64,000 bases of DNA from contig JAGTXO010000017.1 in NCBI GenBank assembly GCA_019448385.1, forward strand, positions 62,001 through 126,000, given 5' to 3'. Shown in pieces: positions 6,166 through 61,035 of the stretch (position 1 is its first letter; each line of letters opens with the position of its first letter). This DNA comes from Diacronema lutheri (Eukaryota; Haptophyta; Pavlovophyceae; Pavlovales; Pavlovaceae). The translations under genes and the position numbers were made by a program. The notes below the pieces were generated by a model. That model worked only from the letters and a program-made list of their open reading frames with translations. It was not told the origin of the DNA and did not search any database.

Positions 6166-6197
<32 letters not shown>

Positions 6198-6612
6198 GCT
6201 GCTGCTGCCACAGGCTGCGCGGGCGCGGCGCGGCAGCGTGGCGTCGCAGGGGCGCGAAAGGCGGGAAAGCGCGGGAGGAGAAAGGCGGGAAAGAAAAAGG
6301 GCGGGAAAGAGCGGGGGCGGGCTCGCCTGGTTCTTATCCGGGTGGTACTTGAGCGAGAGCTTGCGATACGCGGACTTGAGCTCGCGCTCGCTCGCCTCGG
6401 GCTCGATGCCGAGCACCTCGTACAGGTCCGCTTCACGCTCGAGCGCGCCCACCCACTTGCACGCGACAGGGTCGCCATCCTGCCTGAAACCGTCGAGCCG
6501 CTGCCTGTCAGCCGATGGCGTGAGCTCATGCAGCGGCCCAGCCGCGCCAAACTGCACGTAGAGCTTCCCGCCATGCGCCGACCATTTGCACTCCGCGTCA
6601 CGCTCCTGCGCG

Positions 6613-19363: not shown

Positions 19364-19502
19364 TCACTTCTTGAAGCCGCGCATGCCCATCGCGACGGCC
19401 GCCTTGTCGAGGTCGTCAAAGTAGGGGTGGAGCAGCGCGTCCTTTGCGGTGATGCGCGCGTGCGGCTCGTAGAGCAGCATGCGCTAAGGGAAGAGGGAAG
19501 AG

Positions 19503-19556
<54 letters not shown>

Positions 19557-23706: not shown

Positions 23707-26471
23707 CTTCTGGGCGCTGCTCTCGGCTGACCTGTTACGCGGCCGTTATCTGCGTGTGCTCGCGCTTACTGCCGAGCTGCGTGATTCGCTCGCCTCCCTC
23801 GCGCCACACCGCCCCGAGCTGCGCGCGGAGCTGCACGAGCGCATCGACCTCGCCCTTCTCGTGCAGGTGTGCGCGCGCTTTGAAAAGTGCCCCCATCAAC
23901 CCCCCCAAGCCCCCCCCCCCCTCCCCTCCCCTTCCCGCGCGGCCGCGCAAACGGCATGCCCCCTCCTTCCCCCTTCCCCCTCCCCCTTCCCCGTCCCCCT
24001 TGCCCCGTCCCCCTTGCCCCGTCCCCCTTGCCCCGTCCCCCTTGCCCCGTCCCCCTTGCCCCGTCCCCCTTGCCCCGTCCCCCTTGCCCCGCCCCCCTTG
24101 CCCCGTCCCCCTTGCCCCGTCCCCCTTGCCCCGTCCCCCTTGCCCCGTCCCCCTTGCCCCGTCCCCCTTGCACCGTCCCCCTTGCCCCGTCCCCCTTGCC
24201 CCGTCCCCCTTGCCCCGTCCCCCTTGCCCCGTCCCCCTTGCCCCCCTCCTCTCCTGCTCGGTGGCCCGGCCCCGCCCAGCCCGGTCCGGCACGATCCGGC
24301 CCAGCCCGATGCGCCACGCCGCACGTCGCGTCCACACGCCGCGCGCGCGACGGCGCGCGGTGCCGTGCCGAGCGCGCCGCCCGCGCGTCGCTCCTACCAC
24401 CTCGCGCGCCTCACGCGCGCGCGCGCGCCAAGCCCCCGCCGCGCGATCGGCGACGGCGCCGCCGCCAGGCGCTCGCGCACGGCGCGCTCGACGCGGCCGC
24501 GCTCGCCGACCTGCTCAGCTACGTGGTCGACACGCTGCGCACGCTGCAGGCGCCGTCGCGCGACGCGGCCGTCGACGCGTGGGCCGCGCACATCCTGCCG
24601 CGCATGCGCGCGTGCGACGCGCCCGCGCCCGCGCCCGCGCTCGTCGGCGCGGCACGCGACGCGTCGCCCGCACCCGCCGCCGCCGCCGCCGACAGCGCAC
24701 CGGCCGGCGAGCGGCTGCACGAGCTGCTGCCCGCCGCTTTTGAATTCGTCTTTGCATGCATTGATGACATCCGGACGGATATTGCCCATTTTCACTTGCA
24801 GGCGGCAAGGGCCGTGCTATCGCTTGACTCGGGTGCGCACGCCGCCGCGCCACGCGCGCGCCGCCGCCGCCGCCGCCGCGCCGCGCGCCCACGCCGCCGG
24901 CGGACCGACCACCCGCCGCGCGCGCGCCTGCTCGCGCCGCGCCGCGCGCCGCGCCGTGCGCTGCCGCGTCCGCGCGCGCAGACCGTCTCGAGCGCGATCG
25001 CTTCGACGAGGCGCTCTCGTCAGGCGAGGTGTCGCTCCGCCGTACGCACGCGTACGCGCGCGAAGCCGTGCTGCGCGAGCTGATGCTCGCCACTTCCGCC
25101 GCCGAGCGCGCCGCGCCGCCGGCCGCGGGCGCGCAGCCGCTCGCCGCCGGCGCGGGCGCGCTCGGCGCAGGCGTGGGCGGCGCGCTTCGCCGGCTCTCGT
25201 CGCCGCGGCTGCGGCTGCCGCACGGCTCGGGCGCGGCGGCGGCGGCCGCGCTCGCCGCCGCGCGCGCGGCGGCTGCCGCCACCAACGCCGCCGCCGCCGC
25301 GCAGCCCACCGCTGCCGCCGCCGCCGCGCCGCGCGCCACCGGGGCGCTGCCCGCCGCCGCGCCCCGCGCCGTCGTGATCGGCGCGCCGGCGCGCGCGCCG
25401 CCGGCCGCGCCGCCGGCGGCCGCGCCGCGCGCGCCTCCACCCACGCAGCTGCTGCAGCACATTGACCTGCGCGCGCTCAGCGCCGGCCGCGCGCCCGCGT
25501 ACGAGGCGTTGTTGCAGTGCGCGCTCGCCCACCTCGTCTTTGTGCCGGTGGGCGCGGCGGACGGCAACGGCGCGCGTGGCCGGGCGGACGGCGGAGGCGG
25601 CGGCGAGCTGCTGCTGCCCGAGACGCTGCGCTTTGAAGCACCCGACGTCGTCGCCCTCCAGCGCGCCGCCGCGCTCGCCGTGCATGTGGCCGTCACCTTG
25701 CTGCGCGCGCGCGCGCTCTGCGCAGCGGCCGGACACGTCGTCCGGTCAGCGCGCGACGTGGCCCGCTTCAAGGCGGAGGTGCTCGCCATCTTCGCGGGCA
25801 CGCCGCCACCGCCACCACCGCCACCACCGCCTCCGCCACCACCGGCGCATGCGCCCAGCGCCCCGACCGCCCAGCCGCACGCGCCGCGCGCCGCCGCCGC
25901 CACGGGCGCGCCGCGCGAGGCGCCGGTGGTGCCGTCGCTGCTCGAGCTGTCCGCGCTGCCGCTGCCGCGGCTCGGCGCGGTGGCGCGGCGCGTAGGTTTC
26001 GCGCTCGGCCGCCTCCTCGAGTCGCAGCCGCACGCGGCGTCGAGCGGGACGCACTCGACGCCGCACGCCACCGTGGCCGCGCTCGAGGCCGCCGTGCGCT
26101 GGCGGTACTCGCTCGATGACCCGCTCTTCGCGTCGGTGGCGCGCAGGCTCGAGGCGGCGGTGCGCGCGCAGGCACTCAAGCCGCGCGGTGCGGGCACCAA
26201 CGCGCGCGCGACACCGCCCGACGGAGGTGGCGCCCACGATGGCGGAGGCGATGGCGGCGGCAAGGAATGCGACGATGAAGTGCCGAGCCGCGCTGGCGGC
26301 GCGCGCGGCGAGGCGAGCACGATGGGCCTCGACGGCGTCGGCTTCATGGCGGCCGAGATCCACGAGCTCTGGGAGGGCGTGCACGCGGTGAGCGGGCGCA
26401 ACGCGCGGCTGTACGCGCCGCACTACAACCGCGTGATCACGCAGGCGGTGCGCGAGATCATCGGACACTGA
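21780..26471 (+). CDS. TCP11-domain protein with acidic and Gln-rich N-terminal half
   Basis: Exons 21780-22141, 22279-23866, 24469-24832 and 24982-26471 join in phase to about 1,267 aa. The first half is compositionally biased. Acidic runs are followed by about 320 bp of alternating Gln-Pro/Gln-Ser (23143-23465), a run of Asp, and about 19 Ser (23648-23705). The conserved half begins near residue 615 with SLAPHRPELRAELHERIDL and LALLVQ. It continues in exon 3 with LLSYVVDTLRTLQAPSRDAA and FVFACIDDIRTDIAHFHLQ. This is the T-complex protein 11 (TCP11) pattern, in which a LCAP-RDE-like motif precedes an LDxxKxDxAN-like helix. The C-terminus ends VITQAVREIIGH. TCP11 proteins are linked to sperm motility and cAMP signalling in animals, and to other roles in plants and fungi. 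No enzymatic activity is known. Exon 2 may hide another intron near 22380-22450. Confidence 0.85.
23143..23465 (+). repeat. coding CAGCCG/CAGTCG microsatellite
   Basis: About 54 hexanucleotide units, CAGCCG with interspersed CAGTCG, encode alternating Gln-Pro and Gln-Ser in the TCP11 gene. Every other frame also stays open (Arg-Ser, Ala/Val, and Arg-Leu or Cys-Gly on the other strand), which explains several long spurious ORFs here. Confidence 0.93.
23990..24245 (+). repeat. 14-bp minisatellite in TCP11 intron
   Basis: The unit CCCCTTGCCCCGTC repeats about 17 times with rare single-base variants (CGCC, CACC). It forms a long pyrimidine-rich array inside intron 2 (23867-24468), with pyrimidines on the sense strand. 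Confidence 0.93.
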
Positions 26472-26664: not shown

Positions 26665-28919
26665 ATGCTCCTCCGGCGCCGAGGCGGCCTGCTCTGCGCG
26701 CGAGACGCGGAGCGTGCCTTCGCGCTCCCGCGCGCGCGCGCGCGCGCGCGCGTCGCGCCGCTCGGCGCGTTCGGCCTCGCGGCGGCGCGGCGCGGCGCGC
26801 GGCACGCGAGCACGGATGCGGCCGCGGCGCTCGTGCGCGCGGACGCGGCGGCGAGCGCCGACCCCGCCGGGCCGCGCCGGCGGTGGCGGCACGTGCTCGA
26901 CACGGCGAGCACGGGCGCAGATCACTTCCGCACCGCCGTGCGCGCGGCGTTCCGCCTGATCGATGCGGACCGCGACGGCACCGCCTCGCGCGCGGACGTT
27001 TCGCTCGCGCTCCAAAAGTGCGCCGACCGCCCCTTGCGCGCGCGCGCGCCGCGGGCGCGCGGCCGTGCGCCGTGCGCGCCCTGATGACGCGCGGTCGCGC
27101 GCGCGCGCAGGTACTCGCTCGTGCAGGAGCTCTTGCTGCTGCCGCGTGATGTGTCCGACAGCGAGTTCGAGCAGGTCCGCCCTTCCCCCGCGAGCGCTGT
27201 GCGGCGCACGGCGCGCGCCGCCGGCCGAGCGCGCGGCCACGCTGCGTCGCCGCGCGCGCGCCCCTCGCGCGCACGCAGCTGTTTGAGATCATCGATGGCG
27301 ACGGCGACGGCCGCGTCGACGAGCACGCGTGGCGCACCTTCTTTCTCACCGCCAACACGTCCGCCGGCATCTCGCGCCCGCCGACGCCGCGTTACGACCC
27401 GAAGACGTCGGGCGTCACGGCATTCCTCATCGACCTGGACGGCACGCTGTACACACCCGGTCGGCTGATCCCGGGCGCGCGCAACTTTTACGCATGGCTG
27501 CTCGGCTCGAGGACGCCGCACGTCTTCTTGTCCAACACGGGCTCAAAGGGTCCGGAGGGCACGCAGCGCAAGCTGCACCACGCGCCGTACAAGTTGCACC
27601 ACGCGCCCGTCCCTCTCTCGCACATCATGACGGCCGCGGACGCTCAGGCGGACTACATGACGCGCACGCTGCCCGCCGGCAGGTGCGTCAACCCAAGCAC
27701 CAATACCCACATCACCCATGGCCCAAACCCCGATACCAAACCCACCCACCCCCCCCCTTCCCTTCCCCCGTCGCCACGCCAGTCGTATTCTCGTCGTCTC
27801 GGGCGGCGGCTCGTTTTGGCGCGTGCTGCTCGAGCGGCGGGACCGCGAGCGCGTCGCGTCGTGGGACGTGCGCACGGAGCTCACCGACGAGCACGCGATG
27901 CGCTGGGCGCTCGAGGCACAGGCCACGCGCTGCGCCGGACCGGCCGCCCCGCGCGTCGTCGTTGCCTTCTTCATTGATGGTGCGCGCGCTGCCGCCACGG
28001 CGCACCGCACGGCGGACGGCACGGCGCCACGCGCGCGCAGCGTGACGCGCCGCGTGCCCTTTTCAGCGCGGACGGTTTCAACGCATCCCGACACGTATCC
28101 CGGCACGTGCCTGCGCCGAGATATGCGTTGGCTTCAACCCACCCCCTCCCCTCCCCTCCCCTCCCCTCCCCTCCTCTCCCCTTTTCCCCCTTTCGCCCGC
28201 AGGCAACGTGTGCCAGGCGGACGGCGGCGACGGCGGCGACGGCTTTGGCGGCAGCGAGGGGGGAGCTGGTTGGAACTATTCTCTCATCAAGCACTGCGCC
28301 TTTTTGCTCGGCCACGGCGCCTACCTCGTGTACACCGCAGACGACCCTTTCAACCCGCAGTCGCATAAGAAGCATGCCGGTGCCGTCTTCCCGCTGCCCG
28401 GCCCCGGTGCGCGCCGCCCCGCTCGGCCCACACCGCGCGCACCCACACCGCGCGCACCCACACCGCAGCGCCGCGCCGCGCGCGACTCTGACACGTCACC
28501 CACGCGCGCGCGCGCCGCGCTGCGCTGCGCCGGCGATAGGCATGTTTGCATCCATGCTTCGTCCCGTGGTCCCGCTCGAGTCGCAGGACCGGATCCTCTG
28601 CTGCGGCAAGGGCGGCAACGTGGGGGCGAGCTTCATGATGGAGCAGGCGATCGAGATGCTCAAGCAGCAGGGGCACAGCGGCGAGAGGGACACGATCATG
28701 ACGGTGGGCGATCGCTTCGGCACGGACGTGCGCGGCGCCGCACACGCCGGGCTCAAGTCGTGCCTCGTCGAGTCCGGCTGCGAGCAGATCCGGCAGCAGG
28801 ACTTTTACCCGACCGACCGCGCGACCTACTGGGCGCCCTCCGTTGACTACATCCACCCGCTAGGCCCTGGCCGGTACGAGCCGTCTTTCGACAGCGGCTC
28901 CCAGGGCCACTCGCTCTGA
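26665..28919 (+). CDS. EF-hand/HAD-superfamily (NagD-like) phosphatase fusion, probably mitochondrial
   Basis: Six exons join in phase to 533 aa: 26665-27017, 27111-27174, 27279-27682, 27783-27979, 28203-28406, 28540-28919. The N-terminus is rich in Arg without acids, like a mitochondrial presequence. Two EF-hand-like loops follow (RLIDADRDGTASRAD and IIDGDGDGRVDEHAW). From residue about 185 comes a class-IIA HAD hydrolase. Motif I is FLIDLDGTLY with the two catalytic Asp, motif II is VFLSNTG with Ser/Thr, and the acidic motif IV is VGDRFGTDVRGA. A Lys in ILCCGKGGN is the likely motif III. Class IIA includes phosphoglycolate/p-nitrophenyl phosphatases, NagD and pyridoxal phosphatase, so the substrate cannot be named. 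The EF-hands suggest Ca2+ control (inference). The upstream GTG at 26647 was rejected in favour of the ATG. Confidence 0.87.
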
Positions 28920-32000: not shown

Positions 32001-34255
32001 GAAATAGTGGCCGCCGTGCGAGAAGCGGCACTCGCGGCACGCGCGGATCGCGAGCTCCTTGTACGGGCGGATATCATCAATGAGTAGGTTCATCAGCCGC
32101 AGCTTGTCCGAGAAGCCCACGAGCACGAAGAGGCCCGAGACGTGGAAGGCGATGGAGTGTGCTTCCTCGGCGAAGGTCTTGGACAGCTCGACGGTCCGCT
32201 CGATGTAGTTCCAGATGCGCACAGACCTGTCCTTGCCGCACGTCGCGACCAGCGGCTTGCGCACGCACGTGTCGAGGCCTGCACGCACAAAACGCAGCCG
32301 CGCGTGCGGGTGGGCAGCGGGCACGATGGCACGGCAGTTGGTGCGGGTGGACAGCGGGCACGATGGCACGGCAGTTGGTGCGGGTGGGCAGCGGGCATGA
32401 TGGCACGGCAGTTGGTGCGGGTGGGCAGCGGGCATGATGGCACGGCAGTTGGTGCGGGTGGGCAGCGGGCACGATGGCACGGCAGTTGGTGCGGGTAAGC
32501 AGCGGGCATGATGGCACGGCAGTTGGTGCGGGTGGGCAGCGGGCACGATGGCACGGCAGTTGGTGCGGGTGGGCAGCGGGCACGATGGCACGGCAGTTGG
32601 TGCGGGTGGGCAGCGGGCACGATGGCACGGCAGTTGGTGCGGGTAAGCAGCGGGCATGATGGCACGGCAGTTGGTGCGGGTGGGCAGCGGGCATGATGGC
32701 ACGGCAGTTGGTGCGGGTGGGCAGCGGGCACGATGGCACGGCAGTTGGTGCGGGTGGGCAGCGGGCACGATGGCACGGCAGTTGGTGCGGGTAAGCAGCG
32801 GGCACGATGGCACGGCAGTTGGTGCGGGTGGGCAGCGGGCATGATGGCACGGCAGTTGGTGCGGGTAAGCAGCGGGCATGATGGCACGGCAGTTGGTGCG
32901 GGTGGGCAGCGGGCACGATGGCACGGCAGTTGGTGCGGGTAAGCAGCGGGCACGATGGCACGGCAGTTGGTGCGGGTAAGCAGCGGGCATGATGGCACGG
33001 CAGTTGGTGCGGGTAAGCAGCGGGCACGATGGCACGGCAGTTGGTGCGGGTGGGCAGCGGGCACGATGGCACGGCAGTTGGTGCGGGTAAGCAGCGGGCA
33101 TGAGCAGTTGGTGCGGGTGGGCAGCGGGCATGATGGCACGGCAGTTGGTGCGGGTAAGCAGCGGGCATGATGGCACGGCAGTTGGTGCGGGTGGGCAGCG
33201 GGCACGATGGCACGGCAGTTGGTGCGGGTGGGCAGCGGGCACGATGGCACGGCAGTTGGTGCGGGTAAGCAGCGGGCACGATGGCACGGCAGTTGGTGCG
33301 GGTGGGCAGCGGGCACGATGGCACGGCAGTTGGTGCGGGTAAGCAGCGGGCACGATGGCACGGCAGTTGGTGCGGGTGGGCAGCGGGCACGATGGCACGG
33401 CAGTTGGTGCGGGTAAGCAGCGGGCACGATGGCACGGCAGTTGGTGCGGGTGGGCAGCGGGCACGATGGCACGGCAGTTGGTGCGGGTAAGCAGCGGGCA
33501 TGATGGCACGGCAGTTGGTGCGGGTAAGCAGCGGGCACGATGGCACGGCAGTTGGTGCGGGTAAGCAGCGGGCATGAGCAGTTGGTGCGAGCGGCCCGGG
33601 CACGGCGCGCCGCGCGCGCGCGCCGCCGCTGCCCCTCGCACCGGTGACGTGTCCGGTGTGGAAGTGCTGCGCGATAGGCTCAAAGTTCATCTCGTCCTGC
33701 TTGAGGATGTCGAGGTTCGAGAGCGGCAGCGCATACAGCTGCGCGGAGGCGAGGCTGCACAACAACGCCTCCTCCGACGGCGAGATGGCGAGCGCCACAA
33801 CGCGGCTGTGCAGGCCGTCGAGCCGAAAGCTCTTCGTGCGCTTGAAAAGCTCGCGCTCCTGCCGCACAGCGCCGCCGCGCGGGCGCACCGCGGGCGGGCG
33901 CACCGGGGGCGGGCGCAGCGCGGGCGGCGGCTGAGCACGGCGTGCCCACCCGAGCGCACGGGCACGCGCTCCCCGCGCGCCACCGCCGAGCGGCGCGCAC
34001 GACCACCGCCACGGGGGCGGCGGACGTGATTGCCGCCACGGGGCCGGCGGACGCCGGCCATGCCGGCCCCGCCACGCGCTGCATCGTCGTGGCCTCTGCG
34101 ATCCCCGCCCCGTCCCCGCCCCATTCCTGCCCCCCCCCCCCCCCCCTTCCGCCTCCGGACACCATTTCTGCCCACCCCGCTCCGCCCCCGGACACCCGTC
34201 GACGGGGCTCCGTCCGTGCCCGCCTCCGCCCCCGCCCGTGCCCCGCCCCCCCCGC

Positions 34256-35469: not shown

Positions 35470-37872
35470 ATGGCGGCGCGCGTGGTTTGGCTGCTCGCGT
35501 CGCTCGGCGGCGCGGCGGCCTTCTACCTGCCGGGCGTCGCGCCCAAGGAGTACATGGAGAACGACAAGGTGGAAATCAAGGTGCGCGCCACCCGCGCGGC
35601 GTGCGCCCGCGCGCGCGAGACGGGCACCGCGCGCGCGCTGCGGCGCGTGCCGCGCGGCCCACACATTGCCGCGCCGCGCTGCTGCCGCCCGGCGGCGGCG
35701 CGCGATGGGCGCCGAGTAGCGGGCGAGCCGGCCGCGTCAGCCGCCGTGCTATGTACCGTCCGTGCTTCGCTGCTGGTCGCCCTTCATCGCCCGCCCGCGC
35801 CGCGTGCCGCGCCCCGCGCCGGCGCCAATCGGCATCGGCCGCCCTCAGAGCCCCGGCCGCCGACTGGCCGCGCGCGCGCGCTCATTCGCGCCGCGCCGCG
35901 CTGCGCCGCGCCTCGTCGCGCCACGCCGCGCCACGCCGCGCCACGCGCGCAGGTGAACAAGCTCACGTCCACCATGACGCAGCTGCCCTATGATTACTAC
36001 TCGCTCCCCTTCTGCAAGCCGCCAAAGGTGATGAATGCCGTCGAGAATTTGGGCGAGGTGCTGCACGGCTCGGTCATCCACAACTCGCCGTACGACGTCT
36101 TCTTCGGCACGTCAAACTTTAAGGTGCGCGGCATGGCGGCCCGCAGCCGTCACATTAGCCCCCCAGGGCGCACAGCCACGTCACGACAGCTGCGCGCGGC
36201 GCGCTGGCCAGCCGCGCGCGGAACATGCATGCACAGGCGCTGGCCGCGCCGCGCGCCGCCCGCCCCGCCCCCGGCGGACGAGCGCGGCCGGGAGCGCGCG
36301 CTCGGGTTGGTGGAGGCGCGTCGCGGGGCAGTACGGACCCACATCGGACCCGCATCGGACCCGCGTCGGGCCCGCGTCGGACCCGCATCGCCCGCCCTCC
36401 TGACCCGGTCGCTGCGCGCGGCGCGCGCGTGTGCCGCTGCCGGGCGCGCGTGTGCCCCCCCCCCCCCCCCCCCCTCCCCCCCCCCCCCCCCTCCCCTCCT
36501 CCGCTCCATGGGGCCGTAGGTGCTGTGCAAGGTGGACCTGCTCGAGGGCGGCGCGGGCAAGCAGTTTGCCAAGAAGATTCGAGAGGATTACCGCGTGCAG
36601 CTCATTATGGACAATTTGCCAGCCGGTGCGCAGAAAGGCTGCCAGTAACAGAACACAAGCCCCTCCCCCCTTTTCCTTTCTTGATGGCCCGCGCCTGGGC
36701 GCTCCCGCGCCGCGCCGCGCCGCGCCGCACCCACCCACCCACCAACCCGCCGCCCGCCCGCCCGCCCGCCCGCCCGCCCGCCCGCCCGCCCGCCCGCCCG
36801 CCCGCCCGCCCGCCCGCCCGCCCGCCCGCCCGCCCGCACCGTCCGTCCATCCGCCCGTCCGTCCATTCTTCCGTCCGCAGCGACCAAGATGCTTCAAAAG
36901 CTTTCCGATGGGCAGACGGTGACGCTCTACGACCGCGGCTTCCGGCTCGGTTTCGTCGGTACCGAGCGGCTTGCCGGGACGACCCCGGGCACGCCCTATT
37001 TGAATAACCACCTGCGTTTCGTCATCAAGTTCCACCGCTCGGACGCGTACGAGGGCGCGCGCATCGTCGGCTTTGAGGTCGAGGCGTACTCCGTCGCGCA
37101 CAAGTCCGCGCCGAACCCCCCCCCCCCCCCCCTCCCCGCCCCGCCCCGCCCCCGCCCCGCCCCCGCCCCGCCCCTTCCGCCATCGCGCACGATGGCTTCC
37201 GTCGGCTGCGTGTTCGGCGGTGCCCCCGCCGTGCCGGCCGCGCGCGCTCACCGCGCGCATCTCCGCGCGGGGCTGCGCCGCCATCTTGCAGATACTCCGG
37301 TGAATGGAAGGACGACCCGGACCAGGTCACCTTCCTCACTGTGCCGATCACACCCGATCTGCCACCGCAGCCCATCCTCACCGCGGACACGTCGGCCACC
37401 CCCACGCCCCATGTCATCTTCACGTGCGCTGCACCGCACCAGCCGCGCGATCCCGCGCCGATCGCCAACCGCCGCTCGCCGCGCGCGCGCTCACTCGCCC
37501 CCCCCCCCCCCCCCCCCCCGTCCCCCCCTCCCCCCCCCTGGCCCTATGCGTGTGTGCCCCCCCCCCCCCCTCCCCCCCTCTCCCCCTGCCCTGCTCTGCT
37601 CTGTGTGTGCGTGTGTGCCCCCCCCCCCCCCCCCCCCTCTCCCTGCTCTGCCCTGCCCTGCCCTGCCCTGCTCTGCTCTGTGTGTGCGTGTGCGTGTGTG
37701 CCTTCCCCCCCCCCCCCCCCCTCTCCCCCCCCCCCCCCCCCCCCCCGCCCTGCCCTGCTCTGCTCTGTGTGTGCGTGTGCGTGTGTGCCCCCCCCCCCCC
37801 CCCCCCCTCTCCCCCCCTCTCCCCCTCTCCCCCTGCCCTGCTCTGCTCTGTGTGTGCGTGTGCGTGTGCGTG

Positions 37873-37908
<36 letters not shown>

Positions 37909-40196
37909 TCCCCCCCCTCTCCCCCTGCTCTGCTCTGCCCTGCTCTGTGTGTGCGTGTGCGTGTGTGTGTGGCAGGTACGAGACGACGTGGGAGCCGTCG
38001 GACATCAGGTGGGCGTCGCGCTGGGACCTGTACCTGTACATGGGCGACGACCAGATCCACTGGTTCTCCATCTTGAATTCGCTTGCCATCGTGCTGCTGC
38101 TGACGGGCATTGTGGCCATGATCATGATGCGCACGCTCCGACGAGACTTGAACAGGTACAATGCGGAGGACAAGGAGGAGCTTGCCGAGGAGAGCGGGTG
38201 GAAGCTCGTCCATGCAGACGTGCTCCGCCCGCCCCACCTGCCCACGCTCCTCTGCGCGTCGATTGGCACGGGCGCTCAGCTGCTCGGTATGACCGCCATT
38301 TCTATCCTCTGCGCCATGCTTGGCTTCCTCTCACCGGCCAATCGCGGTGGCCTCCTCACCGCAACGTTGCTGCTCTACGCGCTGATGGGCGTGCCCGCGG
38401 GGTACATCTCGGCGGGTGTGTTCAAGGCACTCTCGGGCGAGAATTGGGCAGCGCTCACGCTGAGTACTGCGCTGCTTTATCCAGGCATTGCCTTCTCCGC
38501 CTTTGTCTCGCTCAACTTTTTCATATGGGCACAGGGGTCCTCCGGCGCCCTCCCGTGCGCGCCGCACCCGCCGCCCCCGCGCGCGGGCCGCGCGCGCGGC
38601 GGCGGCGGCGGCGCCTCAGCCCGCGCCGCGCCGTGCCGCGCGTCACCCGCGCCCCCGCCGGCGGGCAGCTTTGGCACGTTGATGGCGTTGATAGGGATGT
38701 GGTGCTGCATCTCGCTGCCCCTCGTCTTCGTCGGCTCGTTCCTCGGCTACAAGGCGCCCGCTGCGCCCCCGCCCGTCCGGACAAACGATATCCCGCGGCA
38801 GGTGCCCGAGCAGGCATGGTAAGTGCCCGCCCGCCCCAGGCGTGCCGCGCCTGCCCGCCCGCCGTGCCGTCGCCTCGCCTTCTCCCGACATTGACTGCGC
38901 CGCCACATTCCGCCCAGCCGCCCATCCTGTGGCCCTTCCGATCTCTGCCCCATCCCGCTGACCCCCCCCCCCCCCCCCCTTTCCTCAGGTACATGGGGGT
39001 CCCCTTCACGATGCTTGTCGGCGGTATCCTGCCCTTCGGCGCGGTGTTCATCGAGCTCTTCTTCATCATGACGAGCGTATGGCAGCAGCGCTTCTACTAC
39101 GTCTTCGGCTTCCTCACCCTCGTCCTCCTCATCCTCCTCGTCACGTGCGCGCACCCCTGTGTCGTGTGCCCTGTGTCGTGTGCCCTGTGTCGTGTGCGCT
39201 GGGCACACGGCGCAAGGCGGCGCGCATCGCACAGCGCGCAGCAGAGCGGGCGAGACGCGCGACACGTGCTTGCCCGATGAGCTGCCCGCCCTGCTTCGCG
39301 CTGCCGGCCCGCGCGACACGTGCTTGCCCGATGAGCTGCCCGCCCTGCTTCGCGCTGCCGGCCCGCGCGACACGTGCTTGCCCGATGAGCTGCCCGCCCT
39401 GCTTCGCGCTGCCGGCCCGCGCGACTCGTGCTTGCCCGATGAGCTGCCCGCCCTCTGAGCGCGTGGCTGCACCTGCGTGCGGAGACGGGTCGATTCTGCA
39501 AGCGGCCCCGCACCTCCCTCCCCCCCCCCTTCCCCCCTCCTTTACTGCTGTGGGGGATGGCGTGCCTCGCCTTGACCTCCCATCCGGCCGCTCCCGCGCG
39601 CTCCGCTCCCCCGCGGCGCGCGCGACCCCCGCCGCGCGTGCAACCCCCGCGTGACGGCGCATCGCAGTTGCGCGGAGATCTCGATCGTCCTCTGTTACTT
39701 CCAGCTGTGCAACGAGGATTATGGCTGGTGGTGGCGTTCCTTCCTCAACTCAGGCGCAGCTGGTACGCACCTGCACTGCGCCGCGGCTAGCGCGCGCGAC
39801 TCGTGTGAGCGTGGCGTGGCCGTCTCGCCTTTTCAACTGCTCGAGCGGCACGGATGGCGTGGCCGTGAGGTGGGGCGGGCGCGAGCGGCATGCGCGGCGA
39901 GCCGTGCGGCTCTTGGGCCGCGCGCAGCCCGCACGCGCTGCCCAGACGCCGCCCATTCCTGCCCCCTCCCCCCCCCCCCCCCCCCCCCCCCCCCCCGCGC
40001 AGGCCTGTACCTGTTCGCCTACTCGTTCGTCTATTTTGGCACTCAGCTCGATGTGATTGGCGCAGTGCCCACTATGGTCTACTTTGTGTACATGGCGGTC
40101 GCATCCCTCTACTTCTTCCTCGTCACGGGCACAGCCGGCTTCATTGCCGCGTACACCTTCGTCTGGCTCATCTACGGAGCGGTCAAGGTTGACTGA
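35470..40196 (+). CDS. TM9SF nonaspanin (transmembrane 9 superfamily)
   Basis: Ten exons join in phase to 638 aa, the family length: 35470-35580, 35953-36123, 36520-36625, 36881-37103, 37292-37423, 37976-38554, 38669-38818, 38989-39144, 39668-39762, 40003-40196. A signal peptide (MAARVVWLLASLGGAAA) is followed by FYLPGVAPKEY and the lumenal motif TQLPYDYYSLPFCKP. The SDIRWASRWDLYLYM segment leads into nine membrane spans, including SSGALPFGT and AEISIVLCYFQLCNEDYGWW. The protein ends with KVD, matching the KXD/E Golgi-retention signal of this family. TM9SF proteins sort membrane proteins with glycine-rich transmembrane domains through the Golgi and endosomes. Introns carry long poly-C tracts, a CCCG array and a TG-rich repeat, all removed by in-phase splicing. 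Confidence 0.95.
36739..36838 (+). repeat. CCCG tetranucleotide repeat in TM9SF intron 3
   Basis: About 20 copies of CCCG run uninterrupted inside intron 36626-36880. They are followed by CCGT-type units (CCGTCCGTCCATCCG) up to the acceptor at 36880. Confidence 0.93.
37498..37965 (+). repeat. poly-C plus TG-rich compound repeat in TM9SF intron 5
   Basis: Units of CCCTGCTCTGCTCTGTGTG and GTGCGTGTGTG separated by 10-30 C residues repeat about six times across intron 37424-37975. They end directly at the GGCAG acceptor. The array is a very long pyrimidine-rich tract on the sense strand. Confidence 0.92.
39261..39458 (+). repeat. 54-bp minisatellite, about 4 copies, TM9SF intron 8
   Basis: Units beginning GACACGTGCTTGCCCGATGA recur at 39261, 39315, 39369 and 39423 (the last reads GACTCG). 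The period is 54 bp inside intron 39145-39667, and an 18-residue open frame would result if it were retained. Confidence 0.92.
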
Positions 40197-43591: not shown

Positions 43592-45324
43592 CTAGAAGCC
43601 ACCACGCTCGCCCTCGCCCTCGGGGAAGAGCCGCAGCGGGTGCGCCTCCGTGTTGAAGGCAAACTCGTGCAGGGGCAACACGCCATCGTCCGCGAAGAGC
43701 AGGAACAAGTATTTCAGCGTTTCGGCGAGCCAGAAGGAGTCCATGCGCCCGTCGTGCTGCACGCCCGCGGGCGACCCCGCGCCGCCCCTTACGTCCTTGA
43801 CGCCCGAGTACCCGCCCGACGGCAGCTTTGCGTGCGCCTCGAACGCGCTGAAGAGCTCCCAGCCCCACCTGCTCGCAGCCACACGTGGCGTGGCGGGCGT
43901 GCGGGCTCGGGAGTGCGCGCGAGGCGCACGCGGCGCGGCGAGGCTGAGAGTGCGTGCGCCTCTGCGCGCGCGCGCGCGCGGCGAACGCTCGCGGTCGGGC
44001 GCGCGCACGTGCGGTAGCGATTGCGCTTGGTGAGCCTGTGCAGGACAAAGAGGGATTCTGCCACCTCCGGTCTGAGCAGGTTGTGCGCTGCGCCCGCCTT
44101 GGGCCGCACGTCGAGCGGAGGGAGCGCTCGCGCCGCCGACCCAGCCGCGGGGCCGTCGCCGATGCCGCCGTCCGCGCCGCCATCCGCGCCGCGCGGCGCA
44201 GCGACGCGATCGGTAGCGCTCGACGCCGCGGCGGCGGGCTGCGGCGGGCGTGCGCCCACGCCAGACGTTGCATCCGCCGCCACCGCCTCCGCCTCCGCGG
44301 CCTCCGCCTCCGCCTGCGCCGCGGCCGTCGCCGCAGCGGCGGCATGCAGCTCGGCCCACGCGAGCGGCGCGCGGCCCTCCCCCGGCCCCGGACTGAAGTC
44401 GGCGATTTCAGGCGCGAGGCCAGTGGGCGTGAGCGCGCCCATCGCGACGCACGTCTGCGCGAGCTCCTCGCCGAGCTGCAGCTGCGCGCTGTCACCGAGC
44501 GCCACGCCACCGAGCGCGAGCATGGCGGGTGCAAAGCACGCGACCGCATCCTGACGCGGCGGGCGGCGCGCAGGTGGAGGAGGGGGGGGGGGGGGGGGGG
44601 GGGGGTTAAGGGGAAGGGAAAAGATGAAGGGAAAGGGGGAGGGGAAGGGAGAGGGAAAAGGGGAAGAAGAAGGTAAAAGGTCTGCTCGGAGCATCGACGG
44701 CTGCGGGGCGCCGCACGCGCGCGGCGCGAGGCAGAGCGGCGCGGAAAGCGCTGCCATCCCCGCACAAGCCACTCGCCCGCCACCGCCGCCACGGCACACA
44801 CATTGCCCCGCCCAGTCGGCGCCAGGGCACTCCGCCGGGCCGTGCACAGACGGCGGCTCTCACCATCTCGTGCTTGAAAGCTTTGCTCCTAAAGTCGAGC
44901 ACACCCACGTAGCTTCGGCCCGCAAAACTCACGCGCGCAAGGTGCGCGGCGATGCCGTGGAGCGCGCGCAAGAAGAGGCGGAGCGGAGTCGGATCCGACT
45001 GCCGCCCGCGCAGCAGCCAGCCCTTGACGAAATACTCGTACACCGAGTCGGCGCGCGCGCCGAGCGTGAGCGTGCTCGACGTGAACGCGCCAGTGTCCGG
45101 GTGGATGAAGTGCGGGAAGAGTCCGGTGGGCAGGCCGGCGGGCCGCGCCATGCTCGCGAGGTGCGCGGTCACGCGATCGGCAGCTGCCGCGAAACGACCG
45201 TCGCCACTCAGCCGGGAAAGGGCGGCAAATTCAAGCTGCAAGGTGCCCACCTGAGAGCGCGCGCGGTTCGCGCTCGTCGCGGCGTTGGATCCCACGGTGG
45301 CGCCCATGCAGCTAGAGCAGCCAA

Positions 45325-45364
<40 letters not shown>

Positions 45365-47783
45365 GGGCAGGCCCTGCAGCTAGAGCAGCCAAGGAAGGTG
45401 GGTGAGAGGAGGGGAGCCCATGCAGCTAGAGCAGCCAAGGGGGGTCGGGGGGGGGGGGGGGAGGGGCATGACAGGGGAGAAAATGCGAGGGAGCACGCAA
45501 GGGAGGGCACGGTATCCACCGCGCCAAGAGGGAAGAGGGCATGCCAAACCCGCTCTGCACCCCGCGCGCTGCACCCACCTCCGCCGTTGTCGATGCACCC
45601 CCCGCCCAATTCGGGTTGTAACTCCGTCCACTGCCTAGTCCGAGTGTGCCGTACGGCAGGCCAGTCGGGCTCTCGAAAGCACGCAGCAGACGCACGCCGA
45701 GATCGACCGCAAGTCGCAAGAGCAGCGCGTCGCCGCCCGCGTCAACGCTCGCGCCGTCGCCCGCGTCGCCGCCCACGTCGCCGCCGCCCGCGGCCGCCTG
45801 CGCGCGCGTGTGCGCGGCGTCGCGCGCGCCCGGGCTCTCAGCCACCGACGCGCCGCCCGCTGCGCGCGAAGTTGGCAACGAGAGCGTGTACGCGCCAAGC
45901 AGCCCGCCAAGCACTCGAATCGTTGTTTCAAACACGTTCACATCCTCCTACGCAGGTTGGGGTTGGAGGGGTAGATTCGGCGGCGCGGCGCGCGCGCGAG
46001 AGCGCGCGCATTTGTGCGCGCAGCCGCGGGCGCGCAGCCGCAGCCAAAGCGAAACGGATGCGATCGCCCCCTGCCAATGCGCGCCACGCACGCGCGAGCT
46101 TGGGCGCGCAGCGCGCTCGCGCACCTGCGTGGAGAAGGCGAGGTGCCCGCTTAGCCACGCGCGCGCGCGCCGATAGCGCCGGCCGGGCAGCCGCGCGCCC
46201 GCCGCGGCCGCGCGGCTCTCGAGCGCCGCCTCCGCCGCCGCCTCCGCCGCCGCCGCCGCCGCCTCCGCCGCCGCCGCCGCCTCCGCCTCCGCCGCCGCCT
46301 CCGCCGCCGCCTCCGCCTCAGCCGCCGCCTCCGCCTCCGCCTCCGCCGCCCCGGCGTCCGCACCGCCGTCCGCACGTTGCGAGCGCTCGCCATCCGCCCA
46401 GCGCAGCTCGTCGCCGTCGAGCAGCGCGCCGTAGCCGGCACCGCCCTCGATAAGGAGCAGCGTGTCGAGTGCATCGACGAGCGTTACGCCCATTCCAAAA
46501 CCGGCGGCCTTGCACGCCGAGCCGCCGCCGCCATCGCCCTCGTCGGCGCCAACGCCAGCGCCGCGCGCCGCGCCAGCCACGACCGTGCTCGCGCCATCCG
46601 CGAGCGCCACCCGCGCACCCGACGCGCCGGCGCGGGCGGCAGCCGCGGCAGCGGCCACACCGGCCATACCCGCGGCCGGCGCCGCCCATGCCGCGCCGAA
46701 CGGCGCAAGCTCGTCGCAGCCGAACGCGTGCTGCTCGTAAGCGTCGTACGAATGAAAAAAGGCGGCCGCGATCGCGCGCTGCCGGACAAGGTCGGCGCGC
46801 GACGCGGCGACGACGGCCGCGGCGTCGAGCGCGCCCTCGGCCAAGAAAGTGTCCGCGCCGGGCTCGCCGCCGACGCGCGCCGCGGCCGGCGCCGGCCCGC
46901 GCGCGCCACGCCGCGCCGCGCGCGCCAGCCGTGCGCGCGGCGTCCACTCGAGCCCCTCGGCCGTGGGCGTGGCCCACTCGCCCGAGCCCTCCGCCGCCGC
47001 ACCGCTGCCAGCCGGCGCGCTGCGCGCGTCGCCCGGCTCGTCGCGCGCCGAGCCGCGCGCGCAGCCGCGCGCCAAGAAGAGCGGCCAGCGCGGACGCCAG
47101 CCGCGCCACACATCGTGGTGCGCGCGCTCGGACTGGTCGAGGCTGACGCCGCACGCTCGCCCACCCGAGCTCGCCGGGTCATCCTGACCGCCATCGCCGC
47201 GCCCGCGCTCCTCGTCGTCGCACCCGCGCCATGCCACGCACCCACGCGCGGCGCGCGCGCCCCTGTGCTCAGCGCTGCCGTGTCCGGCGCTGGCGCCACG
47301 GCCGGCGGCGCAGCCGAGGTTGGCGTCGCCGTCGGCGTCGTCGTCGACGCGAGTGGGCACGGCGCGTGTGAGCGCCTCGATCCGGCGCTCGTCGTCCTCC
47401 GCCGTCCGCGCGGCGAGGACAGCCGCGGCCGAGACGGCGCTCGCCAGCGCGGCACGGCCGGCGTCGGCGGCCGGCCTCGCTTCGTCAGCACCGCGCAAGC
47501 ACGCACCGGCTAGGCCGCCGTCGGCCGCGGCCGCATCAGAGCACTCGACCGCTCCTCGGCGCGTCTTGAATCCGAGCGTGCACGGGCCCTCGCCGAGCCG
47601 CGAGCCGGTTGCAGGGCCGTCGCCGCCAAGCGGCGGGGCAAGGCGAGGAGCGCGCGGCGGTGCGCGCCACTGGCCGGGCGCGAGGAGCACGGCGAGGAGG
47701 AGGAGCGCACAGACGGTGGTAAAAACGAATCGCCGGGCGAGGGAGGGAGGGCGGTAGGGTTGCCGCCCAGCAATCGCCGCCAT
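43592..47783 (-). CDS. GH47 class I alpha-1,2-mannosidase, type II membrane protein
   Basis: Exons 46125-47783, 45579-45947, 44864-45250, 44009-44550 and 43592-43868 join in phase to 1,077 aa. A short cytosolic tail is followed by one membrane span (residues about 18-37, RFVFTTVCALLLLAVLLAPG), as in ER/Golgi mannosidases. The GH47 domain begins near residue 340 (HSYDAYEQHAFGCDEL). It includes GFGMGVTLVDALDTLLLIEG, VNVFETTIRVLGGLLGAY, TAEVGTLQLEFAALSRL, RADSVYEYFVKGWLL, LLRPEVAESLFVLHRLT and the Ca2+-binding end FNTEAHPL. Catalytic acids in FETTIR, ADSVYEY and RPE are present. It trims mannose from N-glycans in the ER/Golgi; EDEM-type proteins are the alternative. It is far longer than the usual 600-700 aa because of a 300-residue stem and an Ala/Glu repeat near 475-525. 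Confidence 0.92.
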
Positions 47784-51822: not shown

Positions 51823-52423
51823 ATGAAGATTGACGAAGTGTCGCCCCCAGCGGTCAACCCCTCGCGCCCTCGCCGCTCAGTGGCTTTTGTCGTCGCGCGG
51901 CTCCTGCCAGCGCTGCCGGCCGGGCGCGTCGGCGGCGAGGCTGCGCGGCCGCTTGCCCGACGCAGCGACGCGCTGCGCAGCCAGCCGCTTCTGCTCCCCT
52001 TCGCGACTGAGCTGGGCCAACGGTCAGTCGAGCGCCACAAGCAATCCTCGGGAGCCGGTGGCCCAACCCAACCCAACGATCTTCGTCGCCACCCTTCGCG
52101 CGTTTTCCGTTCGCGCCCAAGCAGACAATGAGACCACAATCTCGGTGCTGCTCGGCGCGATGATGGGCCTCAGCGGCTCGGTGGCGATCGTGCTCTACGT
52201 GCGCGCGCGACGTCGCGAGGTGCAGCACGGGCGCGTGGCGACGCCGCGCATCATCCAGCGCCAGCTCGAGCTGCAGCTGCCGTGGGGCCGGCCGGACGAG
52301 GCATCCGTCGCCTCGCGTGCCGAAACGCCGGGCGTCGAGGCCGCGTCGCGCTCGGTGCGCGACGCGGCGCCCGAGCCGGACCCGGACGAGGGCTACGTGC
52401 GCGTGGCGAGCGCGGCGTTCTGA
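51823..52423 (+). CDS. small one-TM protein (exon structure uncertain)
   Basis: The confident part is the final exon from about 52129, after a CAAGCAG acceptor, to the stop at 52421-52423. It encodes NETTISVLLGAMMGLSGSV, a membrane span ending in VLYVRARRRE, and a cytosolic tail with DPDEGYVRVASAAF. A YVRV-type tail and a basic stop-transfer signal suggest a type I protein. ATG 51823 (MKIDEVSPP) opens a different frame, so an intron or another start is needed upstream, and its boundary is not resolved. No family is recognised. The gene would be divergent from the PA/7TM gene across a 74-bp AT-rich spacer (51749-51822). Confidence 0.5.
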
Positions 52424-52533
52424 GGCGCGCACGACGTCGCCCAGCCAGAGCAGCCCGGGGCGGGGCGAGTCCGGCTGCGCGGAGGTCCGGCTCGAGCGGG
52501 CGGGCGCCATGCTCTGAGGCGTCGCCGCTTTCT

Positions 52534-52825
52534 AAAAGGGTGTAGGGTGTAGGGTGTAGGATGCAAAACAAGCCCTCCCCACATTTGGGCCCGACGTCAT
52601 TCCTTCTTCGAAGCCGTGACGTTACTCACATACGAGTACTTTTACTTAGTGTAGGATGTATCTATTCTCTAAGTATTTGCATAGTGTAGGGTGTAGGATA
52701 AGTACGGTTACGAAAGTCCTACAGGGAGTGAAGGAATGACGCTGTGACGAAAGAAGGAATGACGTCGGGCCCAGATGTGGGGAGGGCTTGTTTTGCATCC
52801 TACACCCTACACCCTACACCCTTTT
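52534..52825. mobile_element. TIR element copy 1 (MITE-like), 292 bp
   Basis: The element starts AAAAGGGTGTAGGGTGTAGG and ends with the reverse complement. Terminal inverted repeats run about 72 bp to GACGTCATTCCTTCTT and include three GGGTGTA heptamers. The interior is AT-rich, without an ORF. No transposase is encoded, as in a MITE. Flanking bases on both sides (GCCGCTTTCT and its inverse GAAAAGCGGC) extend the inverted symmetry outward to about 52507 and 52852. Confidence 0.88.
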
Positions 52826-53084
52826 GAAAAGCGGCGGCGCCTCAGAGCATGGCGGCTCGACAGCATGGCGCCTATACAGCATGGCGTCGTCCAGCGTCAC
52901 GCCGCGTCGTGGTCCTGCCGCTCCTCCGTGGCGCACGGATGGCGCTCCTCCGTGACGCAGCCGAACGACGTCGCGGCGTCACGGCCCGGGCGCAGTCGCC
53001 ATCCTGGACGCCACGCTGGACGACGCCATGCTGTCGAGGCGCCATGCTGTCGAGCCGCCATGCTCCGAGGCGCCGCCGCTTTCT
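52826..53084. other. palindromic spacer between the two TIR elements
   Basis: The left end, GCGGCGGCGCCTCAGAGCAT then GGCGGCTCGACAGCATGGCG, is nearly the reverse complement of the right end (CGCCATGCTGTCGAGCCGCC then ATGCTCCGAGGCGCCGCCGC). The spacer is therefore itself an inverted repeat of about 50-bp arms with a GC-rich centre. No gene is seen. Confidence 0.85.
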
Positions 53085-53377
53085 AAAAGGGTGTAGGGTG
53101 TAGGGTGTAGGATGCAAAACAAGCCCTCCCCACATTTGGGCCCGACGTCATTCCTTCTTTCGTCACAGCGTCATTCCTTCTCCCTCCTATGGGACTTTCA
53201 TAACCGTACTTATCCTACACCCTACACTATGCAAATACCTAGAGAATAGATACATCCTACACTACGTAAAGGTACTCGTATGTGAGTAACGTCACGGCTT
53301 CGAAGAAGGAATGACGTCGGGCCCAAATGTGGGGAGGGCTTGTTTTGCATCCTACACCCTACACCCTACACCCTTTT
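53085..53377. mobile_element. TIR element copy 2, inverted relative to copy 1
   Basis: The same terminal repeats are present (AAAAGGGTGTAGGGTGTAGG inward), 293 bp long. The asymmetric interior is reversed compared with copy 1: TCATACGAGTAC-type sequence is near the left in copy 1 and near the right here. The copies differ by scattered substitutions and small indels, so neither is a recent perfect duplicate. Confidence 0.88.
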
Positions 53378-53805
53378 AGAAAGCGGCGACGAAGGTGGGA
53401 GGATGCCACCCGTATGCGCGCGTTTGAACGTGCGCGGACGGCCGTTGGCTTCGCGCCCTTTCGTCCACGGTTTGCGCGCCAACGGACCAGTCCTCCGCGG
53501 GCGCCGCGCATCGTCTCAGGGGCGGTCGGTGTGGTACGCCGCGCGCATCGTCAGCGCCGCGGCGTCGAGCTCGGCGAGCGAGGGCGCGTACGTGACGCCG
53601 CTCAGCACCTCGTCCGCGCCCGCCCTCGTCGCGCTCGCCGCCTCCGCAGTGCGCGCAGGCGGCTTCGTGACGGCACGCGAGGCCACGCCGCGCGCCGCAG
53701 GTGCCTTCGCGCGCTGCATCGTCTGTCTGCCGGTCCGACGCGCTCTGCTCTGAACGAACGGACGGCACGCCCGACGAGATCTCGTCGCGTGCACGCTCGC
53801 ACAGC

Positions 53806-54640
53806 ATGTACCCCCAGAACGTCTCCGAGCTGCTGCCCGACGAGATCTTCGGCGACGAGCTGCTCGTCGACCGGCACTACCGCGTGCGCATCCTTCAGCG
53901 CGTCGCCCGCCGCCGCGATGCGGCCGAGGCCAACTTTTGGCTCGACGGCGGGCCCGCCGACTCGGTCGTCGGCGCGTGCATGTGCGGCCGAATCTACGCG
54001 CTCAAGTGCATGGGCCGGCTCGTCCGCGGCGCCCGGATCCTCGCGCTGCTGCTTAAAAATGTGGCGCTCGCCACGTGCCGCGCACACCTCATGGGCCACA
54101 TGCTCCAGCGCATCGTCGGCGACAGCGGCGTCGCGCGGCTGCTGCAGCTGGTTGCAGCTCGTTCGCGAGGATCACGACACGCTCAACGCCGAGCACCAGG
54201 CCTTGGAAGCACAGCATGACACCGGCCAAGTCATGCGACGGCATGTGCGCGCGCGCCGACGCGCTCTCCAAGGACCTCGCACGGGCGCACGAGCACGCTC
54301 ACAAGCTCGATGGCTATCTGGTGTGGTGCAGCGAGCGCCTCGGTGAGAGTGACTCTTTCAACGGAGCGCTCGAGAACCTGAACACGCGGTGCAGCATGAG
54401 ATGTGCTGGCTCCACGCCGAGATGTCGTCGCTCGTTGCGAGTTCGCCCGAGGCTTACGCGAACGACAGCGAGGCCACCGACTTCAAGGACCACGGCGTGT
54501 GCGTCGAGTTCGATGTCTTCAACCGCGACGGGGTCGAGGGCGCGCCCGTGCCCGCGACCGCGCCCACGAAGGCAGAGCCGGGCATCGAGTCCGAGTGCAT
54601 CGCGCCCGCACAGGCAGAGCCGGGCAGCGAGTCCGAAGCG
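53806..54640 (+). pseudogene. frameshifted unknown gene
   Basis: A clean frame opens at ATG 53806 (MYPQNVSELLPDEIFGDELL) and encodes about 115 residues ending GVARLLQLV. At 54144-54163 a 10-bp tandem duplication (GCAGCTGGTT, GCAGCTCGTT) shifts the frame, and plausible sequence continues in the next frame (VREDHDTLNAEHQALEA). A second shift near 54225 leads to DGMCARADALSKDLARAHEH, and a third near 54385 to HEMCWLHAEMSSLVASSPEA. No GT-AG pair explains these jumps. The product would be helical and charged, probably coiled-coil in its second half. The family is unknown. Sequencing error is an alternative for the single-base shifts, but less so for the tandem duplication. It lies next to the TIR elements. 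Confidence 0.6.
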
Positions 54641-55411
54641 TCGCGCCCGCGCCCGCGCCCGCGCCGGCAGAGCCGCGCACCGAGCCCAAGTGAGCCAACG
54701 TGCCGCCGAACTCGCCCAAGCTCTCGTCGGTCGACAGTCAGGCCACCGAGTACAAGACCTCCTACGCGAACTCACGTGCTCGCCACCTGCAACGCCTCGA
54801 GTTTACGCACGCGTTCGAGTCTGTGCAGGCCGAGGTCGCTTAGCCAAAGCGCGCCAAGGTTCCGGCCACCGGCGCATCCAGCCGCTGGCTGCGCAACACG
54901 GCGGTGCGCAACACCCGCAGCTCGGCCAACGGCAAGTAGCGCGCCGGCGCAGCGCACGGTATGCCGCGGCGAGCTCAGTCGCGAAGAGTGTCCGACTGGC
55001 CGCGCCCTCCACGGGGTGCACGCGCACTCGGCGCGGTCCGGTCAGTCAGGGGGCCTCAGCTTGCGCGATGCCAGTTGCGAGCCCCCCCGGAATCCGCCAT
55101 TCTATTCTACTAGGCGTAAATCACCCAAGCCCTTCCGGTCGCCCGCATTCCGGGGTCGGACCCTCCGTCGGCCCGGCTCGGGCCCTCCGTCCGCCGCGCC
55201 CGCTCGACCCCGAATTCTACTCCAAATCGGCCGGTCAGGAGGGTGTCTCGGTCCTAGGCTCGTCATAAGCCTCGCCCCGACCCCTACCCTTGATTGTACG
55301 ACCCGGGTCGTACTCTCAGCCTTACACTGGCCGGACCAGCCCGGACCGCGCCGTATATAGAGCCAGGGTTGCGATCATGTATGGGGCGCACAGGCGCCCT
55401 ACATATGACGT
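54641..55411. other. gene-poor spacer, lower GC, with perfect 18-bp palindrome
   Basis: No supported gene occurs between the gene remnant and the Ca2+ pump stop. Base composition is more mixed than the surroundings at 55080-55430. A perfect 18-bp palindrome, GTACGACCCGGGTCGTAC, lies at 55296-55313, and a TATATA motif at 55354-55359. Neither is next to a recognised start. Confidence 0.55.

Positions 55412-61035
<5,624 letters not shown>

Follow-up and report, generated by a model that had tools for sequence, protein, structure and literature searches.

The composite palindrome in the 64,000-nt stretch of Diacronema lutheri DNA analysed here, hereafter the window, is probably a conserved internal segment of a giant (~31 kb) Fanzor-bearing element that has been copied to ~200 sites in the genome and in which hairpin extrusion, cutting at the base of the loop and end joining rearrange the palindrome. 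The element has two recognizable ends, and its copies carry the palindrome. One otherwise collinear copy has an inverted centre, three distinct deletions end beside the loop, and one of these deletions is found in a shorter, multicopy class of element. A preliminary description of the locus, which depicted two TIR elements around a palindromic spacer, is partly supported. Its view of the structure and of its instability was right, yet the repeating unit is the giant element and not the module.

Structure of the palindrome and of the window copy

The palindrome is ~870 nt long and consists of two ~379-nt arms, 96-97% complementary, that flank a 115-nt loop (Table 1), as the earlier reading of a composite palindrome had implied. 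The arms pair over 52520-52725 / 53186-53391 (206 nt, 97%) and 52730-52897 / 53013-53180 (168 nt, 96%). The two modules do possess inverted ends, measured at 104 and 89 nt and not the ~72 bp initially given, and their left ends are direct repeats of each other (98%). The spacer between the modules is self-inverted for about 58 nt on each side of the loop, and module 1 and its outer flank have the GCGCCATGCTCTGAG motif in common; both symmetries had been noticed before. When the palindrome region was folded as single-stranded DNA its energy was -513.9 kcal/mol, compared with -142.6 +/- 4.4 for 20 dinucleotide shuffles, none of which equalled it (z -84). The arms probably arose from a single module by inverted duplication.

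Tandem GGGTGTA heptamers had also been reported at the module ends, with the comment that they are not a known telomere repeat, and they are present. A telomere-like array was observed in the first 138 bp of contig C20 (L036, C20:1-138; contigs and loci are numbered with C and L, respectively). It is composed mostly of CCCTTA with some CCCTCA units, CCCTTA accounting for 19 of 23 units counted in the first 600 bases of C20. Since this array, the one such contig end seen, is mostly CCCTTA, the GGGTGTA heptamer is a different repeat.

Table 1. Features of the element fragment and its palindrome in the window.
Feature	Position	Strand	Remarks
Right-end fragment of ~31-kb element, 3.35 kb	52010..55360	- (sense of helicase and Fanzor genes)	Right end intact
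Open frame, putative membrane segment VLLGAMMGLSGSVAIVLYV (by eye)	51830..52423	+	No Pfam match
Module 1	52505..52854	+	104-bp inverted ends 52505-52608 / 52751-52854 (96%)
Palindrome left arm	52520..52897	+	Inverted-repeat comparison; 369/392 paired columns identical over 52505-52897
GGGTGTA/GGATGCA tandem heptamers, module ends	52537..52563	+	More at about 52796-52822, 53088-53114, 53348-53374
Palindrome loop (centre), 115 nt	52898..53012		Inverted in L102 (collinear elsewhere) and in deletion copies
Palindrome right arm	53013..53391	-	Inverted-repeat comparison
Module 2	53056..53391	-	89-bp inverted ends 53071-53159 / 53303-53391 (99%)
18-nt perfect palindrome GTACGACCCGGGTCGTAC	55296..55313		About 47 bp inside right end; read directly
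Right terminus TATATAG, then non-element DNA	55354..55360		TATATA in 19/19 readable right ends

The window (C46:62001-126000 of the assembly) holds an end fragment of the element. Homology to other copies stops on the right at about 55360. On the left the fragment breaks at 52010, directly after an A8-9 tract that is seen in other copies; 29 of 30 aligned loci, all but the window, extend past this point over the full 1,003 bases with at least 99.7% identity to L002. The break does not lie at the palindrome and may reflect a truncated insertion or a later rearrangement. Because it falls within the open frame at 51830..52423, the 5' part of that frame is flanking DNA. Further pieces of the C26 copy were not found in the window with the low-complexity filter on. 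A left end at C46:13057 was considered as the missing half of the window copy and rejected, as the expected end at C46:39900-41500 has only low-complexity element matches.

Elsewhere the window contains tandem arrays at 32149-33700 (37-nt units), 57253-57900 (21), 23912-24317 (14) and 56013-56372 (24), and many long G or C runs, 6088-6257, 19449-19640 and 45290-45410 among them. Host-type frames match a P-type ATPase (56877-60086, -), EMP70 (36889-38076, +) and a HAD-like phosphatase (28107-28919, +). The GC content of the window is 74%, compared with 73.25% for the genome in the published report (PMC8379373).

The ~31-kb element and its genes

The assembly searched comprises 43.49 Mb in 103 contigs. 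The genome paper for strain NIVA-4/92 gives PacBio reads with an N50 of 23 kb and a longest contig of 3.042 Mb (PMC8379373). A search with the first module returned near-identical sequence across the genome (40 of 341 candidates were scored), and the neighbouring stretches proved to be repeated too. One full unit lies on contig C26 (about C26:1-31041), its left end trimmed by the contig start. The element termini were counted with at most three mismatches, giving 203 right and 217 left ends, and reversed-pattern controls gave 0. The palindrome belongs to a ~31-kb element with ~200 copies, and the proposal that it is part of mobile DNA is supported.

Ends listed on C1-C48 (98 right, 95 left) were paired, those on C49-C52 (2 right, 5 left) being left out. 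The 67 paired units fall into classes of 31-32 kb (34), 29-30 kb (10), 26-27 kb (8), 21-22 kb (14) and 13 kb (1). They total 1.88 Mb; for 31 right ends and 28 left ends no partner was assigned. By extrapolation (a mean of 28 kb multiplied by 139 to 203 copies, 139 being the paired share of the 203 right ends) the element makes up 3.9-5.7 Mb, or 9-13% of the genome. No description of the element was found in titles and abstract openings of open-licence papers, nor is it mentioned in the short repeat section of the genome paper (PMC8379373).

Both ends were read in 20 copies, 19 of them readable on the right. In gene sense the 5' end is TATATA in 19/19, preceded by C in 16, T in 2 and G in 1, and the 3' end is GACCATCTATAC in 19/20. 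The ends are thus CTATATAC/G ... GACCATCTATAC and not the TC...CTRR of Helitron1. Beyond TATATA at the right terminus the sequence differs among the 19 readable copies. Only the copy at C9:2907539-2939129 (L058, L059; C9:2938k) exceeds the controls, its flanks sharing a repeat of 12-13 bp, ATATAGTCCTCGC. In the other 18 the longest flank match is 4-6 nt, not above the values for 342 mismatched flank pairs, among which matches of up to 10 nt occur. Most reads are shorter than the element, so the flanks of some copies may be misjoined, which makes the lack of duplications provisional. Helitron2 elements are marked by short asymmetric terminal inverted repeats; here hairpin-like sequence was seen by eye near both ends. 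Contigs C1, C3, C5, C6, C8, C10, C12, C13 and C33 each have an end that lies only a few bases from the left terminus, probably because the assembly breaks at the repeat.

Gene content was read in the C26 copy, where the genes lie on the strand opposite to the window's +. Pfam matches include a Pif1-like helicase in interrupted frames (E 2.4e-25), a UCH protease (3.6e-8), a chromodomain (4e-12) and a weak YqaJ match that is under the cut-off (0.016). The sole PDB match of the Pif1 pieces is the Helitron Helraiser (E 1.4e-7 at cut-off 0.1, 5e-13 at cut-off 0.01). A structure predicted for the helicase frame without related sequences had a mean pLDDT of 35 and was uninformative. A frame of ~4,490 codons at C26:2078-15562 (L033, L041; minus) was read as two pieces, whose coordinates and phase suggest one open frame; it holds the weak YqaJ match and the chromodomain. 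Several Ulp1-type protease-like stretches were noticed by eye, with no search support, in long frames including this one.

The left-end gene of the C26 copy carries a Cas12f1-like TNB domain (E 2.4e-6, 28.0 bits with a cut-off of 26.3). The Fanzor motif, given in PMC3627910 as D-X(125,275)-[TS][TS]-X-X-[C4 zinc finger]-X(5,50)-RD, is present in this frame: D355, TS at 540 (184 residues between), the cysteines, the first pair of which has unusual spacing, and RD at 596. Three of the four copies covering the gene (L031, L033, L034) have all parts of the motif in one frame; L035 starts beyond the region. L032 is a broken copy, with D and TS in different frames and RD not found. By the motif test the gene is predicted to encode a Fanzor-type (TnpB-like) nuclease. 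Its best match to PDB by phmmer reached only E 0.3. The left-end 300 nt fold slightly better than shuffles (z -1.5, 13/200 as good), so an omegaRNA signal is not clear.

The preliminary description had found no transposase. That is true of the window, but the window holds an end fragment only. In the scanned frames of the element no transposase, reverse transcriptase or Rep was recognized with Pfam, loose thresholds included, or with a motif regex, and the regex found no HUH/Y motif pair in the C26 copy. A strongly diverged Rep would escape this search of a single full copy. Helitron_like_N has one match genome-wide, on contig C63, which was not placed in this element. A viral origin was also considered. 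Two frames of the helicase and that of the Fanzor were used as queries against viral_contigs, in scans able to detect close relatives only, and no relative was returned. Tentatively, with the odds somewhat against it, the element could represent an undescribed superfamily of giant transposons with a CTATA-type target, a Helitron-like helicase, nucleases, a chromodomain, Fanzor and an unrecognized recombinase. Its palindrome would then be an inherent point of breakage that repeatedly gives rise to shorter derivatives with a broken helicase, which are amplified by the full element.

Rearranged copies of the palindrome

The palindrome sits between open frames about 2.0-2.9 kb from the right end of the element and is present in 30/30 aligned loci, which were chosen by a full-length match to module 1 and not to module 2 or the loop. 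Its rearrangements across copies (REARRANGEMENTS) comprise inversion, one-arm deletion, re-duplication of the loop and single-module copies, together with counts of forward and inverted centres. On either side of the palindrome, locus L102 (C1:168900-170900) keeps the order of C26. Within the palindrome, 75 of 91 diagnostic columns agree with the inverted form and the remaining 16 with the forward one. On the same 91 columns the window, serving as control, has 0 inverted, 88 forward and 3 neither. The left arm contains 13 of the 16 forward-like columns, so the inversion in L102 is not a clean one and conversion was involved; exchange between the arms accompanied by conversion is a more likely origin than a single flip.

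Three distinct deletion junctions were found. Junction 1 joins a left partner at C26:27064 to an inverted centre and occurs in L086, L087, L092, L093, L094, L095, L096, L104 and L105. The other two have partner 10472 (L103) and partner 23530 with a forward centre (L089). Beside the loop 3, 6 and 7 nt of arm are retained at C26:27064, 10472 and 23530, respectively (n=3 distinct junctions). All three are asymmetric losses of one arm that end at the centre, as in an unstable palindrome. Together with the inverted centre, these one-arm deletions support the instability that was foreseen from the window.

Copies with junction 1 include ~29 kb units (L092, L093) and 21-22 kb units (L086, L087, L094, L095), and they do not have the start of the helicase frame. 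These four members of the 21-22 kb class are all those in which the palindrome was read, and all are without the left arm. This distribution suggests one founding deletion followed by further loss and amplification. In L090 the loop and the arm tip are present twice, a partial re-duplication. L088 and L091 each retain a single module between the outer flanks. Its orientation in L088 is opposite to that in L091, and such copies are what recombination or deletion between the direct-repeated ends of the modules would leave.

Exact centre patterns were counted genome-wide. The forward pattern, from loop to right flank, occurs 116 times and the inverted pattern 56 times. Ten of the 56 inverted centres were fetched: eight are junction-1 copies and the others are L103 and L102, of which only L102 is two-armed. 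L093 has junction 1 and is too short to match the inverted-centre pattern. Since 8/10 fetched centres share one deletion, 56 is not the number of inversion events. Among the 30 aligned copies there are 26 right-arm minor alleles; at non-pairing sites 12/14 restore pairing, and 12 at already paired sites break it. None of 7 left-arm minor alleles matches the partner base, and left-arm variation is hidden because the 30 copies were chosen for module 1 similarity. This pattern is compatible with conversion or, equally, with retained ancestral identity of the arms.

These variants can be accommodated in a simple scheme. During replication, or whenever the DNA is single-stranded, the arms would fold onto each other as a hairpin or cruciform, and exchange between them could invert or homogenize the arms. 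A hairpin nuclease of the Mre11/SbcCD kind might cut at the base of the loop, after which end joining would remove one arm; we infer the enzyme, its timing and extrusion in this alga. The loop-adjacent junctions fit this account of hairpin cleavage, with the reservations that they number three and that the element exceeds in length the reads (N50 23 kb) from which its copies were assembled. In E. coli the hairpin formed by an interrupted palindrome is cleaved by SbcCD, the Rad50/Mre11 homologue, and inverted transgene junctions are commonly stabilized via asymmetric deletion (PMC3315005, PMC8701086). For these events the palindrome most likely acts as a passive hotspot. Alternatively, selection may maintain it because it does something for the element, for instance by serving as an origin of replication, by giving a hairpin signal or by regulating nearby genes; we regard this as unlikely though worth keeping in mind. 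The loop-to-right-flank part stands in one orientation in at least 116 copies, 374/377 positions are paired in the arms of L016, and the palindrome lies between open frames beside the helicase and nuclease genes. Against a selected function, one-arm copies are multicopy, the 21-22 kb class contributing 14 of 67 paired copies with 4/4 of those read lacking the left arm, and recent spread alone can explain the near-identity.

The preliminary description had the modules as two separate TIR transposons moved in trans, and a related reading assigns them to a MITE or fold-back family, two members of which would have entered the giant element in opposite orientation. Both modules do have long inverted ends, single-module copies exist (L088, L091), and the terminal motif is frequent, its exact 26-nt core matching at 595 places and not, as a one-off terminus would, at a single one. 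However, the first 100 of these 595 places form 33 clusters (19 of four matches with fixed spacing, 2 of three, 1 at the list end and 11 of one or two), and 33/33 lie inside the ~31-kb element. Coordinates placed 22 of them, 21 with a right terminus 2.0-2.8 kb off and the one at C2:70.6k via an adjoining left segment; the 11 incomplete clusters were all fetched, and each has adjoining element sequence. Independent TIR transposons would occupy many unrelated sites, each with its own target-site duplication. Neither was found among the listed clusters, and by eye no duplication was seen around modules in fetched loci. Two insertions would also not produce symmetry that extends beyond the module ends into about 58 bp of spacer. 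The reading as two independent TIR transposons is not supported, and we consider a MITE family improbable. Two further readings concern the window copy and the assembly. The window copy, a lone end fragment, could be read as a solo repeat from the end of an LTR-like element, and LTR elements head the published summary of repeats, at 32.7% of masked bases (PMC8379373). But self-comparison of C26:1-36000 gave no second copy of the 3.35-kb unit and no long direct repeat at the two ends, the scanned element frames hold no reverse transcriptase, and RVT_1 has only 16 genome matches as against about 200 element copies; the solo-LTR reading is very improbable and was rejected. The reads are PacBio, and missed adapters in such reads are a known source of false inverted repeats. 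An assembly artefact is nevertheless the least credible reading of all, as 30/30 aligned loci have the same diverged arms, variants on different contigs have exact junctions in common, and the published coverage is about 315x (PMC8379373).

Comparison with known systems

Starships and Terminons are giant transposons of tens of kb with accessory genes. The present element resembles them in size and accessory genes, and no tyrosine recombinase or reverse transcriptase was recognized in it. With Helitrons, as represented by Helraiser, the shared feature is the helicase. A Helitron combines Rep (HUH) with a Pif1-type helicase, and of this pair the helicase alone was recognized in the one full copy read. 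LTR retrotransposons differ from the element in their terminal long direct repeats and reverse transcriptase.

The elements CRe-1, CRe-2 and CRe-3 of Chlamydomonas reinhardtii, Fanzor1-bearing and of Helitron2 type, are described in PMC3627910. They are likewise high-copy algal elements with a Fanzor gene, and in both systems many copies keep one end and have lost the rest. CRe insertions that end exactly at the consensus end are without target-site duplications, as are 18/19 copies here with the reservation on flanks given above, and truncated CRe copies usually have duplications of 7-19 bp (PMC3627910). In contrast to CRe, the present element is ~31 kb long with many genes, has termini CTATATAC/G ... 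CTATAC and a long internal palindrome, and contains no recognized Rep domain.

A haptophyte used in aquaculture carries ~200 closely similar copies, up to 31 kb in length, of an element that combines a long palindrome and a Fanzor gene, a multicopy setting in which to ask what Fanzor nucleases do for their hosts. The palindrome itself is comparable to those processed by SbcCD/Mre11, which according to PMC3315005 and PMC8701086 are also interrupted and also undergo centre-adjacent arm loss, inversion and fold-back duplication. The variants described here differ in being natural variants of a multicopy element. Because one sequence stands at many sites, the copies form a natural experiment on how a eukaryote processes a long interrupted palindrome, in which inversions, one-arm deletions and exact junctions can be counted.
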